A DNA stretch of 64,000 nt, taken from Hyphomonadaceae bacterium. Lineage in GTDB: Bacteria > Pseudomonadota > Alphaproteobacteria > Caulobacterales > Aquidulcibacteraceae. Positions 18,579 to 46,969 of this stretch are shown one piece after another. The stretch covers positions 1 through 64,000 of the forward strand of contig WRPI01000004.1 in the NCBI GenBank assembly GCA_009773395.1, given 5' to 3'. Position 1 is the first letter of the stretch, and the number at the start of each line of letters is the position of its first letter. Under the pieces are notes generated by a model. The model was not told where the DNA came from. It saw only the letters and a list, made by a program, of their open reading frames with translations, and did not search any database. Made by a program: the position numbers and the translations under genes.

Positions 18579-18765
18579 GGAATGGTTTATGGCTAGACAT
18601 GTCTCGCCAAAACCATTCATCAAGTGTGTTATGTGCCCTAGGTTTTTGTCAAGTCCTCGCGCCAAAGCGCGACCGCGAAGCGGCTTCGGGACTTGACAAA
18701 AACCTAGGGCACTAAGGCATAATAACCGAATGGACTCAAGGCAGACTTGCCCTTGAGACCATTCC
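18579..18765 (+). repeat. Dispersed three-hairpin repeat, family 1, copy A
   Basis: Terminal GGAATGGT/ACCATTCC; hairpin 18579-18618; 24-bp perfect inverted repeat 18633-18656/18689-18712 with two inner mini-hairpins; hairpin 18728-18764; homologous to the reverse complement of 42319-42504. Confidence 0.92.
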
Positions 18766-36197: not shown

Positions 36198-37232
36198 CTA
36201 ATATTTTTTCGCCATTTGTTCTAATGTCATTGGCTTAATTTTGCTGGCGTTGCCCGATGTGCCAAATTCATTGAAACGAGCAATACAAACTTGCTTTGCA
36301 GCAATTTTTGCAGGTTCAAGATATTTGCGCGGATCAAACTCGCTTGGTTTGGTGGTAAAATATTTGCGAATTGCGCCAGTCATTGCAAGGCGGATATCGG
36401 TATCAATATTGATTTTGCGAACCCCATGCTTGATGCCTTCTTGGATTTCTTCAACCGGCACGCCATAAGTTTCCTTGAGGTCACCACCAAATTCACGGAT
36501 TATCGCCAATAATTCCTGCGGCACCGAGCTTGAACCATGCATAACCAAATGAGTGTTTGGAATGGCAGCATGGATTTCGGCAATGCGTTTAATGGCCAAA
36601 ATATCGCCAGTTGGTTTGCGGCTAAATTTATATGCGCCATGTGATGTGCCAATCGCAATTGCCAGCGCATCAACCCCAGTTTTTTCAACAAAATCTTTGG
36701 CTTCCAAGGGGTCGGTCAATAATTGGCTGTGATCCAAAACGCCTTCGGCGCCAACGCCATCTTCAGCTTCGCCAGTGCCAGTTTCGAGCGAGCCAAGGCA
36801 GCCCAATTCACCTTCCACCGAAACCCCAATTGCGTGCGAAAACTTGCAGACTTCGCGCGTTACTTCGACATTATAATCATATGAAGATGGGGTTTTGCCG
36901 TCGCTCATCAACGAGCCGTCCATCATAACCGATGTAAAGCCAGAACGAATTGATTGTTGGCATACTGCGGGACTAGTGCCGTGGTCTTGGTGAACCACCA
37001 CTGGGATTTCAGGATATGATTCAACTGCTGCAAGCATAAGGTGGCGCAAAAATGGTTCGCCCGCATATTTGCGCGCGCCTGCCGAAGCCTGAAGTATTAC
37101 CGGGCTGTTGGTTTCGACGGCAGCTTCCATAATGCCAACAACTTGTTCAAGGTTATTAACGTTAAACGCTGGCACGCCATAGCCATTTTCCGCCGCGTGA
37201 TCCAATAATTGCCTTAAGCTCACAAATGCCAT
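36198..37232 (-). CDS. fba: fructose-bisphosphate aldolase class II (Calvin-cycle subtype)
   Basis: [48 protein letters not shown]. Confidence 0.93.
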
Positions 37233-37247
37233 TTTCTAACTCCAATA

Positions 37248-39257
37248 TTACAAAACTTGCTGTACAGCCTCGATAAGCTTTTCACAAGTAAGGCCGAAGT
37301 GCTGATACAAATCTTTTGCAGGCGCGCTTTCACCAAAAGTGGAAATTCCAAGAATTTTGCCGCCACGTCCAACATATTTATGCCAGAAATCGGGGTGCGC
37401 CGCTTCAATTGCGACATTTGGAAGCGCAAGTGGTAAAACGCTGTTTTGGTATTCTTGGGGTTGCCTATCAAAAACATTGGTTGAAGGCATGGAAACTACA
37501 TTCACCGCGATATTTTTGGCTGCCAATGCTTGTTGGGCAGCAATAGCGATTTCAACTTCGGAGCCAGTTGCAATGATATTTGCTTTGGCGTTTGGTTTGG
37601 CGCTTAGCACATAACCGCCCATTTTAATTCCCGCATTGTGGCTAGCGTCAGTTAGTGGTGGTAAGTTTTGCCGTGACAGCGCCAGCGCACTCGGCCCATT
37701 TTTGTGCTTTAGTGCGCTCGCCCAGGCAATTGCGGTTTCAAGCGCGTCACATGGCCGCCACACATCAAGATTGGGGATAATCCGCAATGATGGAATATGT
37801 TCAATTGATTGGTGGGTTGGGCCATCTTCACCGAGGCCAATACTATCATGCGTGAAAACATGAATAATGCGAATTTTCATCAATGCAGCCATGCGGATTG
37901 CATTGCGTGAATAGTCACTAAAGGTCAAAAACGTGCCGCCAAATGGCAAATATCCGCCATAAAGCGCCATGCCGTTCATTATTGCTGCCATGCCAAATTC
38001 ACGCACACCATAAGACAAATGATTGCCCCACTTATCACGCCCTGCAACCACATGGCCCTTGAAATTGGTCAGGTTCGAACCTGTCAAATCGGCGCTACCG
38101 CCAAAAAATTCTGGGCATAAAGGCGCAAAAGCATCAAGCGCCATTTGGCTGGCTTTGCGAGTTGCAACATTTGGCTTGGCTTCGGCTGTCGCATTGAAAA
38201 TCGCTTCGGCCTTTTGGTCAAAATCCGCGGATAATTCGCCGTTTAAGCGCCGTAAAAGCTCCGCAGCCAATTCCGGGTGGGCCGCGCTGTAATTCTTGAA
38301 CTTTGCGTCCCAAATATTTTGCGCGGCGTCGCCTGTGGGTTTGGCATCCCAAGCCGCATAAATATCGGCAGGTATCTCAAATGGCGCATGTTCCCAGCCA
38401 AGCTCTTTGCGGGTTGCCGCCACTTCGTCCGCGCCTAATGCCGCGCCATGCACGTCATGGGTTCCAGCTTTATTCGGCGAGCCTCTGCCAATAATGGTTT
38501 TGGCAATAATTAATGTTGGCTTGCCGTCCGCCAATGTACCTTGCGCTTTGGCATCAGTAATAGCGGCATCAACGGCCCCAACATCATGCCCATTAACGTC
38601 CGAAATTACTTTCCAACCATAAGCTTCAAAGCGTTTTGCAGTGTCATCAGTAAACCAACCATCGACATGACCATCAATTGAAATGCCATTGTCATCATAA
38701 ATCGCGATGAGTTTTGAAAGCCGCAAAGTGCCTGCAAGTGAGCAAACTTCATGCGAAATCCCTTCCATCATGCAGCCATCGCCGAGAAACACATAAGTGA
38801 AATTATCGACCACTTCGTGTCCGTCACGATTGAATTCTTGTGCCAATAATTTCTCACCCAAAGCCATGCCAACAGCATTGGCAATGCCCTGCCCCAATGG
38901 GCCAGTAGTGGTTTCAACGCCTATAGTTATGCCATATTCGGGGTGGCCAGCAGTTTTTGAATGGAGTTTGCGAAAGCTCTTAATCTCCTCAATTGGCAAA
39001 TTATAGCCAGTTAAATGCAACAATGAATATAGCAACATCGAGCCATGTCCGTTTGATAATACAAATCTGTCTCGGCTCGGCATTTTGGGATTTTGCGGAT
39101 TGTGATGGAGATGATTGCCCCATAATGAAACCGCAATTTCGGCCATGCCCATTGGCGCACCCGGATGCCCAGACTTCGCAGCTTCCACCGCATCTACCGA
39201 CAACATACGGATTGCGTGTGCCATTTTGTTGGCATTTTTGTGCTGATTATTAGTCAT
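37248..39257 (-). CDS. tkt: transketolase
   Basis: [43 protein letters not shown]. Confidence 0.98.
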
Positions 39258-39298
39258 TATTGCGCCCCTTGTTTAATTCTCAATTTAGTTATTGCCAC

Positions 39299-40180
39299 TT
39301 ATCCCAAAAGGGCGCTTTGACGCCTTTCCATCATGCGCCAAATAAAAGGCGTGAAAATCAATTGCATCGCCAATTCCATTTTCCCACCCGGCACAACAAT
39401 AGTATTTGCCCGAGACATGAAAGAGCGGTCGATCATGCTCAACAAATATGGGAAATCAATGCCTTTTGGGTTTCGGAAGCGGATTACAACGATGGACTCA
39501 CTTGGTGATGGAATATCCTTCGTAATGAAGGGATTCGATGTATCAACCAAGGGAACGCGCTGAAAATTGACATCAGTTTGTGAAAATTGCGGCACAACAT
39601 AATTCACATAATCTGGCATACGCCGCAATATTGTGTCGGTTACGGCTTCGGTTGAATATCCACGTTTAGACTTGTCGCGAATAAGTTTTTGAATCCATTC
39701 AAGATTTATTACTGGCACAACGCCAATTAGCAAATCAGGATATTGCGCTATATTAACAGTTTCGGTTTTTACAGCGCCGTGAAGACCTTCATAGAATAGC
39801 AAATCGGTATTTTCTGGCAAATCTTCCCAAGGTGTAAAAGTGCCGGGTTCTTGATTGAATGGTTTGGCTTCTTCATGGTTATGAAGATAAAGCCTGCGTT
39901 TGCCAGTTCCGCTTTCGCTATAGGTTCGGAAAAGATTTTCGATTTCTGGGAATAAATTGGTATCAGGCCCAAAATGCGAATAATTTTTATTGTGCATTTT
40001 TTCGGCTTCTGCAGCGCGCTCTTTCATTTGGGTTCGGTCAAAAGCGTGGAAACTGTCGCCTTCAATAAAAGCGGCATTGACGTTTTCACGCCTAAATATA
40101 TTCGCAAAAGTTTCGGTGACCGACGTAGTGCCAGCGCCAGATGAGCCAGTGATTGCAATGATTGGATGTAAGTGTGACAT
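39299..40180 (-). CDS. prk: phosphoribulokinase
   Basis: PIIAITGSSGAGTTSVTETF P-loop, FIEGDSFHAFDR, YEGLHGAVKTE. Confidence 0.95.
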   Translation of the reverse strand: MSHLHPIIAITGSSGAGTTSVTETFANIFRRENVNAAFIEGDSFHAFDRTQMKERAAEAEKMHNKNYSHFGPDTNLFPEIENLFRTYSESGTGKRRLYLHNHEEAKPFNQEPGTFTPWEDLPENTDLLFYEGLHGAVKTETVNIAQYPDLLIGVVPVINLEWIQKLIRDKSKRGYSTEAVTDTILRRMPDYVNYVVPQFSQTDVNFQRVPLVDTSNPFITKDIPSPSESIVVIRFRNPKGIDFPYLLSMIDRSFMSRANTIVVPGGKMELAMQLIFTPFIWRMMERRQSALLG

Positions 40181-40192
40181 TCAATTTTCCTC

Positions 40193-41272
40193 TCAATCGC
40201 GAAATAAAGACCGATGTGCGAAAAGCGGCTCATCAGATTTGGGGGTAATCGGTTCGCGATGATATTTTTCAATCCGATTGACTTCATTTTTGGAGCCGAA
40301 AATCAGACCGATGCGTTGGTGAAGCTCTTTGGGGACAATTTCAAGCATCGGCTTTTCGCCAGTTGAACATCTTCCGCCCGCCTGTTCCATTATCATGGCA
40401 ATCGGATTTGCTTCATACAAAAGGCGTAAACGACCAGCTATTTTCGGGTCTTTAGTATCTCGGGGATACATAAAAACCCCTCCGCGCATAAGAATGCGGT
40501 GCGCCTCGGCAACCATCGACGCAATCCAGCGCATGTTGAAGTCCTTGCCCCGTGGGCCAGTTTTGCCTTTCAGGCATTCATCAACATAGCGTTTAATTGG
40601 CGCCTGCCAAAACCTGCTGTTGGAAGCGTTAATTGCAAATTCATTAGTATCGGGCGGTATTTGGATATCGCGGTGGGTTAACATGAATTCACCAATGCGC
40701 GGATCCAACGTAAACCCTTGAACCCCATTGCCAACCGTTAGCATAAGCATTGTAGTGGGCCCATAAATCGCATAACCCGCAGCGACCTGCGTCGCGCCAG
40801 TTTGCATAAAGTCAGCCTCAATAACATCGCGGCCATCATCGGGCCCTTTTAGGATTGAAAAAATTGAACCAACCGATACATTTACATCAATGTTCGAAGA
40901 CCCATCTAAAGGATCAAAAACCAAAAGATATTTCCCGCGCCTATATGATTTGGGGATTTGATATGGAAGCTCCATTTCTTCGGACGCCATACCCGCAAGA
41001 TGGCCACAGCGCTCATTACGCTCGATGAAAACTCGGTTTGAAATTACATCGAGCTTTTTTTGGGTTTCTCCTTGAACATTGATATTGCCGCCTTCTTCGG
41101 CAACCGCGCCACCGTTACCAGTGAGTTCACCCATCGCAACTGCACTTGATATTGCTTTGCAGGCGACCGCGATATCCAGAAGCAGGCCGTTGAGATTGCC
41201 ACTAGCTTTTGGAAATCTCTGTCTTTCGGAAATCAGAAATTGGGTTAAAGTGACATGATGTGAAATTGGCAT
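40193..41272 (-). CDS. fbp: fructose-1,6-bisphosphatase class I
   Basis: [25 protein letters not shown]. Confidence 0.97.
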
Positions 41273-41280
41273 GAGGTTTC

Positions 41281-41976
41281 CTAACCAATTGTCGCTGCTT
41301 GCGCCTTTAATTGCTCAATTATGCCTTTATAGCCGCCGTCAGCGTCTTTTGCGCCAAACACAGCCGAGCCAGCAACGAAAGTATCAGCACCCGCACGGGC
41401 AATTTCGGCGATATTGTCAGTCTTCACGCCACCATCAACTTCGAGCCAAATATCTTGGCCGCCATTTTGGACATGCGCATCAATAAGCGCCCGCACTTGG
41501 CGCAGTTTTGGCAATGTCGATGGAATAAAACTCTGTCCGCCAAAGCCCGGATTAACACTCATAAGCAAAACCAAATCGAGCTTATCAAGAACGTGATTAA
41601 GGCATTCTATCGGCGTGGCTGGGTTCAAAACCAACCCCGCCATGCAGCCATTATCTTTGATAAGCGAAAGCGTTCTGTCGATATGGCGGCTGGCTTCGGG
41701 GTGGAAAGTGATAATATTTGCACCGGCTTTGGCAAACATCGGGATAAGCGCATCAACTGGCTCTACCATTAAATGCACATCAATCGGGATCGAAACATGG
41801 GGCCTAATGGCTTCGCATACCAAAGGCCCGATGGTAAGGTTTGGCACGAAATGATTATCCATCACGTCAAAATGCACCAAATCAGCCCCCGCAGCCTCAA
41901 TCGCGCGCACTTCCGCGCCCAGATTGGCAAAATCCGCGGATAAAATTGACGGTGCTATACGGACAGGTTTTTTCAT
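41281..41976 (-). CDS. rpe: ribulose-phosphate 3-epimerase
   Basis: [32 protein letters not shown]. Confidence 0.98.
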
Positions 41977-42318
41977 GCGTGCCTAATAGAATGTTTGACG
42001 GTTAAAGTGAAGTAGGAGCCAAAAACCGCCCTTTGGCCACAAAACCATATCATTTAATATCAATCGGCATTTGATACAGCGGAAATCCGCCATGTCAAGT
42101 ATTAGTAATAAAGAATATTCGAATATATGCATAAATACGCTGTTTGGTCGTATGAAATGCGATTTTTGCGAGCGGATTTTGCTGGTTGGGGCAAAACACT
42201 ATCATTTGTCATCATTTTGGTTTCGGCACGATAGGTAACAAGCCCGCCAAAACCCCGCTGGTTTTCATGATAGCATTGGAGGCGAGGAGTAGGATAGCGA
42301 CTTTGAGGTTTTTTGTCT

Positions 42319-42504
42319 GGAACGGTCTTAAGGACAGGTTTGCCTTAAGCCCATTCACCTATTATCCCTTCGCGCCCTAGGCTTTTGTCAAGTCCCGAAG
42401 CCGCTTTGCGGTCGCGCTTTGCGCGAGGACTTGACAAAATCCTAGGGCGCCAAACAAACTTAATGAATGGTTTTGGAAAAGCACGATTTTCCATAAACCA
42501 TTCC
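42319..42504 (-). repeat. Dispersed three-hairpin repeat, family 1, copy B (inverted relative to copy A)
   Basis: 24-bp inverted repeat 42372-42395/42427-42450 (one mismatch) with flanking hairpins; reverse complement aligns along the length of 18579-18765. Confidence 0.92.
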
Positions 42505-42653
42505 AAAGCAATTTTCTTCTTTGCAAATATGCATCAAAGATAATTCATCTTGAACATACGTAGCTCTGCTGCTGCAAGTTTATCGATGCGGTGGGGAAAG
42601 GTGCATCAAACTTAGGCTTGGCAACGTAAATCATAGGCGATACTTTCAATTCA

Positions 42654-42983
42654 ATGAAAAACATGACTCTTGACGGCTATGTCGCAACAATTGAACTTGA
42701 TGAAGAAGCGGGGCTTTTTCATGGCGAAGCTATTAACACACGCGATGTTTTGACATTTCAGGGTAGGAATGTTGATTAACTTAGGGCGGCCTTCGCCGAC
42801 ACTTTGGCGGACTATAAGGATTGGTGTTTTGCGCGCGGCAAAACCCCCGAAAAGCCATATTCAGGCAATTTCACTTTGCGCCTATCCCCCGAACTACACC
42901 GCAAAATATCCCTATGGGCAAAAACCAGCAACAAAAGCGTGAATGGGTTGGTGGTGGAGAGCTTGGAGAGGGTGGTGGGGTGA
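42654..42983 (+). pseudogene. HicB-family antitoxin interrupted by an in-frame TAA
   Basis: MKNMTLDGYVATIELDEEAGLFHGEAINTRDVLTFQGRNVD*LRAAFADTLADYKDWCFARGKTPEKPYSGNFTLRLSPELHRKISLWAKTSNKSVNGLVVESLERVVG*; stop at 42777-42779, same frame continues. Confidence 0.85.
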
Positions 42984-43138
42984 GACAACATGGTCTTTCC
43001 TATTCCACCTTTGACTTTAATAGCAATTATGAAGCAAGGCTATCGTATTTCAAAAAATATCTCTATGAATTGACAATATTCTTGTTTGTGGCGAATCTAT
43101 CTAACGATTAGCTACAAAAGATAGGCATTGTATACAGA

Positions 43139-44884
43139 ATGATTACTCGAATTGAGTTGGAGAATTTTAAGAGATTTGACAAATTCGTAATAAAGGCTGC
43201 GAGTGGAAATATACTAGTCGGCCCAAATAATTCGGGAAAATCTTCCATCCTTGACGCGCTTCGAATTTTGGACGCATGCTATCGATATTCGAAAACGAAG
43301 AAGCCCCAACCCATTCAAGTCGATACTGGATATTCGGACGGCTACATTATTCCATCCAATTATTTACCAATTTCGATGGATTATGTTGCAAGAAATTATG
43401 ATGAAAACGATGCTGTAATAAAGATAAAACATGAAAACGGTGCCGTTGCAGTTATCCGCTTAAATCCCGATAGACAGACAAAATTCTACATAGATTCGGA
43501 AGGAAGGAGGTTTTCATCATCAGAGAAGTTTAGAGCGGCTTTTCCGGTGTCATTTGTAATCGTTCCCACACTGGCACCGCTTGAGGCAAAAGAGGTCTAT
43601 GTTACCGATGAAACCGTAGCGAAAAACAGGTCAACTCGCTTAGCTGCACGAAGTTTTCGAAATATCTGGTACAGAGAATCAGATGACGATTTCAAAGTTT
43701 TCAAGTCAAGAGTAGAGCGAGCGTGGCCTGGAATCGAATTGGTTAAACCGAGGTTAATTGTCGACAAACATAACTGGTTAGAAATGAATTTTGAAGAAAA
43801 TAGAATTCCCAGGGAAATACATTGGGCAGGATTCGGTTTTCAAATATGGTTGCAAATTCATACGCATCTACTGAGAGCAAGCCAAAATTCCATTTTGGTC
43901 TTGGACGAGCCAGACGTGTACTTGCATCCCGATTTACAGCATAAACTTTACCACGATATTAGTAGTCTATTTTCTCAATACTTTGTCGCAACACATGCGC
44001 CAGAAATTATAAATGAAGCAGAAACAAGAGAAATTTTGGTCATAAATCACGGCTCAATGTCCGCAACGCGAATTAAGAACGAGGCCGACTACGACAAGAT
44101 GTTGACTTTTTTGGGTTCAGCTGAAAACGCTGACTTTGCGAAGATTGCTCGTGTTAAAAAAGTAATTTTTGTAGAAGGTCAAGACTTCAAACTTATTAAA
44201 AAGTTAGCAAAAATACTCGGCTTAGATCGGCTATCATCGGATATTACGGCACCAGTATTTCAACTAGGGGGTTTTTCTCAGTGGCGTAGAGCCAAAGAAA
44301 CCGTTTGGGCATTTAAAAATCTGTTAGATGTTGAAATAGAGACCATTTGCTTGTTTGACCGTGATTATCGTTGTGACGACGAAGTTACAGCGTTCATTCA
44401 TGATATGGAAAAAGATGGTATGAAGTGTTTTGTCCTGAAGAAAAAGGAAATCGAAAATTATCTAATATCTGACGTTTTCATAACTCGAATCGCCAATTTG
44501 AAAAGGCACGGAGAGTTACCACCAATCGAACGCGACTGTGTCGGCGACTTAATCAGTGAGGCATGCGAAGAAATGAAAGATGATACTGATAGCCAATTGA
44601 TTTCAAATTACTTGCGGCATCACAAAAGAATCAACAGCAAATCAGATGACTCGAACTTAATTAAGGCTGCGAATAAGATTATAAATGCTGCATGGAAAAG
44701 TTTAGACGGTAAGACAAAAATCTCTTCGGGAAAAGAGCTACTGGGCAAGGTTCTTCATCTTCTAAAATCTAAATTTGGGGTTTCGCTAACTCCGTCTTCT
44801 TTGGCAACGGCAATTAGAGCTGATGAGATTCCTGATGAACTAAGGGATATTCTAGTCCAACTTGACGACTTTTTGGCAAAATAG
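43139..44884 (+). CDS. AAA-family ATPase with C-terminal TOPRIM domain (OLD / PARIS-like putative defence protein)
   Basis: Walker A GPNNSGKSS, Walker B SILVLDEPDVYLHPD, H-loop FVATHAPEI, TOPRIM-type VIFVEGQD ... CLFDRDYR ... KKEIENYLI. Confidence 0.85.
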   Translation: MITRIELENFKRFDKFVIKAASGNILVGPNNSGKSSILDALRILDACYRYSKTKKPQPIQVDTGYSDGYIIPSNYLPISMDYVARNYDENDAVIKIKHENGAVAVIRLNPDRQTKFYIDSEGRRFSSSEKFRAAFPVSFVIVPTLAPLEAKEVYVTDETVAKNRSTRLAARSFRNIWYRESDDDFKVFKSRVERAWPGIELVKPRLIVDKHNWLEMNFEENRIPREIHWAGFGFQIWLQIHTHLLRASQNSILVLDEPDVYLHPDLQHKLYHDISSLFSQYFVATHAPEIINEAETREILVINHGSMSATRIKNEADYDKMLTFLGSAENADFAKIARVKKVIFVEGQDFKLIKKLAKILGLDRLSSDITAPVFQLGGFSQWRRAKETVWAFKNLLDVEIETICLFDRDYRCDDEVTAFIHDMEKDGMKCFVLKKKEIENYLISDVFITRIANLKRHGELPPIERDCVGDLISEACEEMKDDTDSQLISNYLRHHKRINSKSDDSNLIKAANKIINAAWKSLDGKTKISSGKELLGKVLHLLKSKFGVSLTPSSLATAIRADEIPDELRDILVQLDDFLAK

Positions 44885-45073
44885 CAGATAGGCATTTTCT
44901 GCGAAGAATGTTTAGTATGGGTTTTGGCTGTGAAACTTAATACCTTCCACTTGATTACATTTAATAAGTTTCCACAAAATTTCTTCGTTCCTTGTTAGAT
45001 TTTGGAGTATCACCCCTCCTTCACTTTGTGACCCCTCCCTCAAGCGAAGGAGCTAAGACCAAAACAAAAATGT

Positions 45074-45160
45074 CAAAAATTTCTAAAAACGACGCTTTTT
45101 AGAAATTTTTGTCCGATTTTTCCCAAATTGCTAAGTGAGCGAAGCGAAGGCGGCAATTTG
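45074..45160 (-). repeat. Dispersed two-hairpin repeat, family 2, copy 2
   Basis: 16-bp perfect stem CAAAAATTTCTAAAAA/TTTTTAGAAATTTTTG with CGACGC loop (GCGTCG on minus strand), 12-nt linker, CAAATTGC/GCAATTTG hairpin. Confidence 0.88.
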
Positions 45161-45166
45161 AAGTAT

Positions 45167-46969
45167 TTAGTTTTCTTCCATCTTCAACGCCGCAATAAAC
45201 GCCTCCTGCGGTATCTCCACTCTTCCGAATTGGCGCATTTTCTTTTTGCCCTCTTTTTGTTTGTCAAGAAGTTTGCGTTTGCGCGAAATATCGCCGCCAT
45301 AGCATTTTGCTGTTACGTCTTTGCGCATGGCGGATATGGTTTCGCGGGCGATAATGCGGCCGCCTATGGCGGCTTGGATGGGGATTTTGAAAAGATGTTG
45401 CGGGATAAGCTCTTTTAGTTTTTCGCACATAACCCGCCCACGGGTTTCGGCGCGGTTGCGGTGGACCAGCATGGATAAAGCATCGACAGGTTCTTCATTG
45501 ACCAAAATCTGCATTTTCACCAAATCACCAATTTGATAGCCATCCATTGAATAATCAAAACTGGCATAGCCTTTGGAAATTGATTTAAGGCGGTCGTAAA
45601 AATCAAACACCACTTCGTTAAGCGGCAAGCCATAGACAAGCATCGCGCGGGTGCCGATATAGCTAATGTCTTTTTGCACGCCGCGCCTATCTTGGCAAAG
45701 TTTGATAATGCTGCCAAGATATTCGTCTGGCGTGAGGATTGTGGCTTTAATCCATGGCTCGTGAATATTTTCAACGCCCATAATTTCGGGCATATCGGCA
45801 GGGTTGTGAAGGCTTATGATATCGCCATTTTTCATTTCAATGTCATAAACAACGCTTGGCGCGGTGGCGATAAGTTCAAGATTAAATTCGCGGGTTAAAC
45901 GCTCTTGAATAATTTCAAGGTGCAATAATCCAAGGAAACCGCAACGAAAACCAAAACCAAGCGCCGCCGAAGTTTCCATTTCATAGCTGAAACTCGCATC
46001 ATTAAGGCGCAATTTGCCCATTGCGGCGCGAAGATCCTCGAATTGTGCAGCATCAACTGGGAAAAGGCCGCAAAAAACCACGGGCTGGGCGGGCTTAAAT
46101 CCAGGAAGCGCCGCTTTGGTTTGGCGTTTTTCTTCAGTGATTGTATCGCCCACCAACGCATCGGCGACTTCTTTAATGCTGGCAGTCAAAAAGCCAATTT
46201 CCCCTGGGCCAAGCACGTCAATATCAGTGATTTTTGGGCAAAATACGCCAACCCTATCAATCGGATAGGTGGCATTGGTTTGCATCATTTTAACGCGCAT
46301 ACCTTTTTTGAGCGTGCCTTCAATGATGCGCACCAAAACTACAACGCCTAAATATTGGTCATAATAAGCGTCCATCAAAAGTGCTTTTAATGGCGCATTT
46401 GGGTCGGCCTCGATGGGTGCGGGCAAGCGGGCAACAATTGCTTCCAAAACTTTGTCAATGCCAAGGCCAGTTTTGGCGGAAATTTCTATTGCTTCGCTCG
46501 CATCAATGCCAATAACTTCTTCAATTTGCGCTTTGATGCGCTCTGGTTCGGCAGCGGGAAGGTCGATTTTATTCAGAACTGGCAAAATTTCCAAATCGGC
46601 ATCAATTGCTTGATAAACATTGGCCAAAGTTTGCGCTTCAACCCCTTGGGACGCATCAACTACCAAAAGTGCGCCTTCACACGCCGCCAAAGAGCGCGAA
46701 ACTTCATAGGCAAAATCCACATGGCCCGGCGTATCAATCAAGTTCAAGACATATTGTTCGCCATTTAATGCATATTCAAGCCGCACAGTTTGCGCCTTTA
46801 TTGTTATGCCGCGTTCGCGCTCAATATCCATATTATCAAGGACTTGCTCCTTCATTTCACGCAATTGCAGGCCGCCAGTTAATTGGATAAGGCGGTCGGA
46901 CAAAGTGGATTTACCATGGTCGATATGGGCGACAATTGAAAAATTGCGAATGTTCTTTTGATTAATCAT
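45167..46969 (-). CDS. lepA: elongation factor 4 (LepA)
   Basis: [27 protein letters not shown]-terminal LepA domain. Confidence 0.98.

Follow-up and report, generated by a model that had tools for sequence, protein, structure and literature searches.

Results

A single ATPase-TOPRIM gene between rpe and lepA

The 64,000-nucleotide stretch of a Hyphomonadaceae bacterium analysed here (GCA_009773395.1, contig WRPI01000004.1, positions 1 to 64,000; hereafter the window) contains, between rpe and lepA, a forward-strand gene at 43139..44884 that encodes a protein of 581 amino acids (aa). It joins an ATP-binding cassette (ABC) ATPase to a predicted TOPRIM nuclease domain and a helical domain, and is probably a one-gene phage-defence system. 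A preliminary description of this DNA had reported the open reading frame, its one-gene build and its position between housekeeping genes, and all three are borne out. The absence of a UvrD/GajB partner likewise holds: lepA lies downstream on the opposite strand, and no partner gene recurs in the homologous loci, the commonest neighbour families occurring in at most 7 loci and mostly at a distance. A genome search found the gene as a single copy in the 2.63-Mb genome. Its guanine plus cytosine (GC) content of 39.5%, against 46.3% for the window, agrees with acquisition.

Conservation was read from 76 aligned full-length sequences, the window protein and 75 intact family members; all protein features below lie on the forward strand. 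The ATPase half (residues 1-310, 43139..44068) is recognised by Pfam (AAA_15, 3e-21; AAA_21, 2e-20) and Foldseek and resembles Rad50, SMC and RecF; the Pfam matches of the window protein are confined to it. It carries the Walker A motif GPNNSGKS (residues 28-35, 43220..43243), the Walker B motif LVLDEPD (residues 253-259, 43895..43915) and the H-loop histidine H286 (43994..43996), with G28, K34, S35, D256, E257 and H286 invariant throughout the alignment. Equally invariant are W229, G231, G233, F234 and Q235 of a family-specific motif, WAGFGFQ (residues 229-235, 43823..43843), which stands at the ABC signature position and may act as the signature loop. The TOPRIM core (residues 341-442, 44159..44464) holds E346 (44174..44176) at the first TOPRIM acid position and D407-x-D409 (44357..44365), the predicted metal-A ligands, and E437-x-E439 of KEIENYL (44447..44455), the predicted metal-B ligands. 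Each of these acids, and D349, is conserved in 75/76 sequences. E437-x-E439 would be the equivalent of the S/T-x-E metal-B ligands of OLD nucleases (PMC7049728). The C-terminal helical domain (residues 445-581, 44471..44881), all-helical and of high model confidence, contains a lysine, K532 (GKE, 44732..44734), that is present in 76/76 members and may be the counterpart of BpOLD K562, the active-site lysine of class 2 OLD proteins. The motifs singled out in the preliminary description, GPNNSGKS, DEPDVYLHPD, ATH, FVEGQD, FDRDYR and KEIENYL, all occur in the protein and, across the 76 homologues, are family signatures rather than chance matches.

Natural exceptions among family members are L024, L040, L055 and L077. 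In two of them predicted catalytic acids are replaced (D409 and E437 in L055, E346 and D407 in L077), and their nucleases are possibly inactive or altered. A homologue in an Asaia metagenome bin (L080:7986-9733) has ten stops in the aligned frame and represents a decayed or frameshifted copy.

Predicted fold

The full-length model has a mean predicted local distance difference test (pLDDT) score of 92.6 and a predicted template modelling (pTM) score of 0.69, so the arrangement of the domains is less certain than the domains themselves; the C-terminal half modelled alone reaches a pLDDT of 93.1 and a pTM of 0.89. Both models place the strands and helices in TOPRIM order, with E346 closing strand 1, D407/D409 after strand 3 and the helical domain next, and we assign the ATPase and TOPRIM folds, as modelled, with high confidence. 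In Foldseek searches the whole model groups with PtuA, GajA, OLD and SMC heads. The C-terminal half matches the C-terminal region of XccOLD, a Xanthomonas class 2 OLD nuclease (6njx; E 2.7e-3, probability 1.00), which is its sole fold match below 0.05, with moderate TM-scores of 0.36/0.45. Because of the TOPRIM topology and this OLD nuclease match, the ATPase/TOPRIM pairing and the defence reading proposed earlier hold.

Relation to named ATPase-TOPRIM systems

The window protein has the build of the OLD/PARIS superfamily, an SMC-like ABC ATPase with Walker A, Walker B and H-loop and a TOPRIM fold with E and DxD. Among the 146 PADLOC models listed for it, the top ones are AriAB (85 bits), NsnB, AriA, PtuA, GajA and Old, with 61 bits each on the best GajA model and on the Old model. 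Genuine controls reach, each on its own model, 634 bits (L121, a fused AriAB of another alphaproteobacterium), 325 bits (a GajA) and 188 bits (an Old). The AriAB score of 85 bits is not diagnostic, because an OLD-type protein (L127) reaches 84 on the same model, and the top match was dropped as proof of PARIS after these controls. Scored alone, the C-terminal half is matched, weakly, by the AriAB model in 51/76 members (best 4e-10) and by AriB in 36/76, by any GajA model in at most 5/76 and by Old in 1/76. Pfam matches to this half are weak as well, with OLD-like_TOPRIM in 30/76 members and DUF4435 in 13/76, the window protein not being among the latter.

Each named system shares part of this pattern. 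With PARIS AriB and fused AriAB, the proposed class 4 OLD, the window protein has in common the ABC ATPase, the TOPRIM domain and the motifs VEG, DRDxR, EN and GK, but it stays far below the score of a genuine fused AriAB and lacks a DUF4435 match. GajA of Gabija, a class 2 OLD protein, likewise carries a helical domain C-terminal to its TOPRIM; in class 2 both domains give active-site residues, lysine included, whereas class 1 is without the helical domain (PMC7049728). The window protein has this domain and the invariant K532, a candidate for such a lysine; in contrast to GajA there is no adjacent UvrD-like GajB, and the PADLOC score is 61 against 325 bits. Class 1 OLD proteins (P2 Old, TsOLD, Vibrio cholerae OLD) resemble it as lone ATPase-TOPRIM genes, some of them prophage-borne, and are likewise described as loners (PMC10568477), but differ by the absence of the helical domain; the Old score is weak. 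A class 3 (retron) arrangement, with a reverse transcriptase and a non-coding RNA next to the gene, was not found: the neighbours are rpe and lepA, and 41900-45300 gave no Rfam match. IbfA/HEC-04 is also a one-gene ABC ATPase-TOPRIM protein, with reported anti-phage activity (PMC12111858), but has 518 aa, the likeness being one of described build.

The nearest protein outside the family is WP_114083283 of Nostoc, an OLD-ABC/TOPRIM protein embedded in a bacteriophage exclusion (BREX) operon, which matches the family profile at 2e-48 and has EIENYL and GKE; the window family is not tied to BREX. Its gene (L013:5311-7188) lies on a Nostoc plasmid between pglX and pglZ, and a plasmid search for its relatives found Emticicia only. 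A survey of BREX loci with TOPRIM-linked OLD-ABC modules interpreted the modules as backup suicidal effectors (PMC12839542).

By sequence comparison the window protein represents a new subfamily within a known kind and falls outside AriAB, GajA and class 1 OLD, the genuine controls, each on its own model, far exceeding any score of the window protein. Its affinities differ: in effector sequence it is nearest AriB/AriAB, in fold nearest class 2 OLD, and in context a loner like class 1. Of the earlier suggestion of a stand-alone or fused variant, the superfamily build stands, whereas model-level identity with AriAB, GajA or Old does not, and fusion itself is not new, single-gene fused PARIS proteins being already known (PMC9122126). 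The PADLOC comparison proposed there returned AriAB as best model, but far under the genuine protein.

Family and spread

A scan of genome contigs with the single sequence gave zero relatives. With a four-sequence alignment as query, 118 relatives were found in GTDB genomes, 80 of which were kept; an alignment search of viral contigs added 3. The aligned members are strikingly uniform in length, about 580-607 aa, and family members span 12 phyla according to the titles of their records, a large share of which are metagenome bins. Full-length members are rare (3/399 genomes of the phylum and 2/385 of the class, both counts including the genome that holds the window), and the genomes searched within the window's own order gave distant matches only. 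The gene tree interleaves phyla, and its strongly supported branches require a minimum of 5 changes for the Pseudomonadota, a pattern that fits lateral transfer without proving it. When outgroups are included, a branch with support 87/83 sets the family apart, deep branches being unsure. Among 11 tblastn matches of the window protein there was no Salmonella or Escherichia plasmid.

The slot beside lepA and the neighbourhoods of homologues

In G003, a sister genome of the same genus, hicA and hicB are followed by a minus-strand gene for 481 aa and then by lepA. The segment that differs between hicB and lepA spans 42968..45159 of the window, where blastn homology stops at 42967 and resumes at 45160. 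The 481-aa gene matches the PADLOC candidate PDC-M36A at 8e-45, and because the G003 slot thus holds a different defence candidate, the window gene looks like swappable defence cargo. G001, G002 and G004 have still other genes beside lepA, and in four other genomes of the genus rpe and lepA are far apart or on separate contigs. The lepA 3' side is a possible insertion hotspot. It differs in five genomes of the genus (L119, L113, L115 and L117 among the loci compared), with the PDC-M36A candidate, DUF559-type genes and a pentapeptide-repeat-like protein.

Two members lie in phage-like clusters. L099, on an IMG/VR contig, directly follows a prophage early region like that of Sinorhizobium phage phi2LM21 (CI repressor, AlpA-like regulator) and sits about where phi2LM21 has its integrase. 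L101 comes after tail and lysozyme genes resembling Pseudomonas phage records and after an open reading frame that reads as Fic-like. The flank of L100 has mainly transposase matches. A search of named phage genomes gave no match to the gene. Neighbour Pfam families of the homologues are miscellaneous. Three homologous loci have a carB-like gene no more than about 0.1 kb away, which looks like a shared insertion place, not a partner. Insertion at transfer RNA (tRNA) genes was considered and rejected as a general link, with 7 tRNAs in 6/53 homologous loci, one of them about 0.35 kb away (L036).

Upstream of the gene lies a hicB antitoxin relic (42654..42983, forward strand) with an in-frame stop at 42777, which is part of the slot and not of the system; no hicA remains were found upstream of it. 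G003 has an intact hicAB copy at this position (L119:89-692). The preliminary description had taken the locus to be bounded by repeats, and this did not stand. The upstream repeat (42369-42453) is a 27-bp inverted repeat with arms GGACTTGACAAAANCCTAGGGCG, one copy of a palindrome of about 80 bp that also occurs at 18634-18711; its half-sites number 48 in the genome, mostly on contig 7, against 0 for the reversed control, and it appears REP/MITE-like (repetitive extragenic palindrome or miniature inverted-repeat transposable element). The downstream repeat is a perfect 16-bp AT-rich inverted repeat (45074..45111), a hairpin that occurs once in the window and is possibly a bidirectional terminator. 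Further upstream, 36198-41976 on the minus strand carries fructose-bisphosphate aldolase, transketolase, phosphoribulokinase-like, fructose-bisphosphatase and rpe genes, from the translations apparently a Calvin-cycle-type cluster.

Discussion

We consider it likely that the gene is mobile anti-phage cargo and encodes, as a one-gene system, a TOPRIM nuclease of the OLD/PARIS superfamily that is gated by ATP. The support computed here consists of the fold, the conserved catalytic acids, the single-gene build, the patchy lateral spread, the swap-site position and the phage-borne relatives; the link to defence is drawn from the last two, the G003 swap site and the phage-borne homologues. The ATPase half would dimerise or oligomerise, sense a condition brought about by the phage, such as an anti-restriction or anti-RecBCD protein, and hold the nuclease inactive until that trigger. 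Cutting would then proceed by a two-metal reaction, in which E346/D407/D409 and D349/E437/E439 hold the metals and K532 assists, and might abort the infection, as proposed by analogy with related systems. In PARIS, AriA keeps AriB inactive until Ocr and similar phage proteins release AriB, which leads to tRNA cleavage (PMC12409363). P2 Old, as cited in PMC13261556, is reportedly activated by RecBC inhibition and cuts a host tRNA. GajA and TsOLD cleave DNA (PMC10568477). If the mechanism is right, host tRNA would be our first guess for the substrate, with about an even chance given the AriB-like sequence, and phage or host DNA the second, at slightly less than that.

Several points weigh against this interpretation. 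The window protein falls below the cut-off of the Pfam TOPRIM and DUF4435 models, and AriB structures are not among the top 50 fold matches of the C-terminal half. Beside the homologues a defence-gene enrichment was not visible: neighbours within 3.5 kb and the 4.5-8 kb control both had few PADLOC matches, in a coarse test with small samples, whose matches, at one or two proteins per model, do not add up to a count of distinct proteins. No family member is known to have been tested. The archaeal Cran1, a single-gene OLD relative, works in the cell cycle (PMC12796447), and the anti-phage phenotype of E. coli YbjD did not depend on its TOPRIM (PMC13261556).

A divergent class 1 OLD protein, acting on its own as a DNA nickase or exonuclease and protecting the cell through DNA degradation without a tRNA step, is a serious minority possibility. 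The loner context, the OLD nuclease as best C-terminal fold match and the OLD-like pattern of catalytic residues all fit such an enzyme, but the Old model gives 61 bits where a genuine Old gets 188, and the effector sequence is closer to AriB than to Old. A second alternative is a fused PARIS (AriAB) sensing anti-restriction DNA mimics such as Ocr and cutting tRNA. We regard this as rather unlikely: the 634 bits of L121, and the 84 bits that an OLD protein obtains on the same model, count against it, despite AriAB being the best PADLOC model, the AriB/AriAB matches to the effector half in many members, the VEG, DRDxR, xEN and GK motifs in common with L121, and restriction-type N6-methyltransferase genes elsewhere in the genome. 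A role outside defence, in DNA repair, recombination or chromosome maintenance, would suit the Rad50/SMC/RecF-like ATPase and has its precedent in Cran1 (PMC12796447). However, the gene is absent from the close relatives searched and sporadic across phyla, it occupies a variable slot, and two members sit in phage-like clusters, so that a housekeeping function of this kind seems quite improbable.

For the ATP-gated defence nuclease that we favour, a wider claim is more doubtful. It may represent a fifth class of OLD-type defence, with the genetics of class 1, a class 2-type C-terminal domain and an AriB-like active site, in which one protein would be sensor, switch and effector and would suffice alone in many phyla; we put this forward tentatively. 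The current OLD classes are delimited by gene context, and the family described here crosses their borders. A review of OLD proteins (PMC10568477) names as an open question whether one such protein is enough for broad defence without partners. With its numerous naturally occurring one-gene systems, all built alike, and two members altered at catalytic acids, this family makes the question directly testable.
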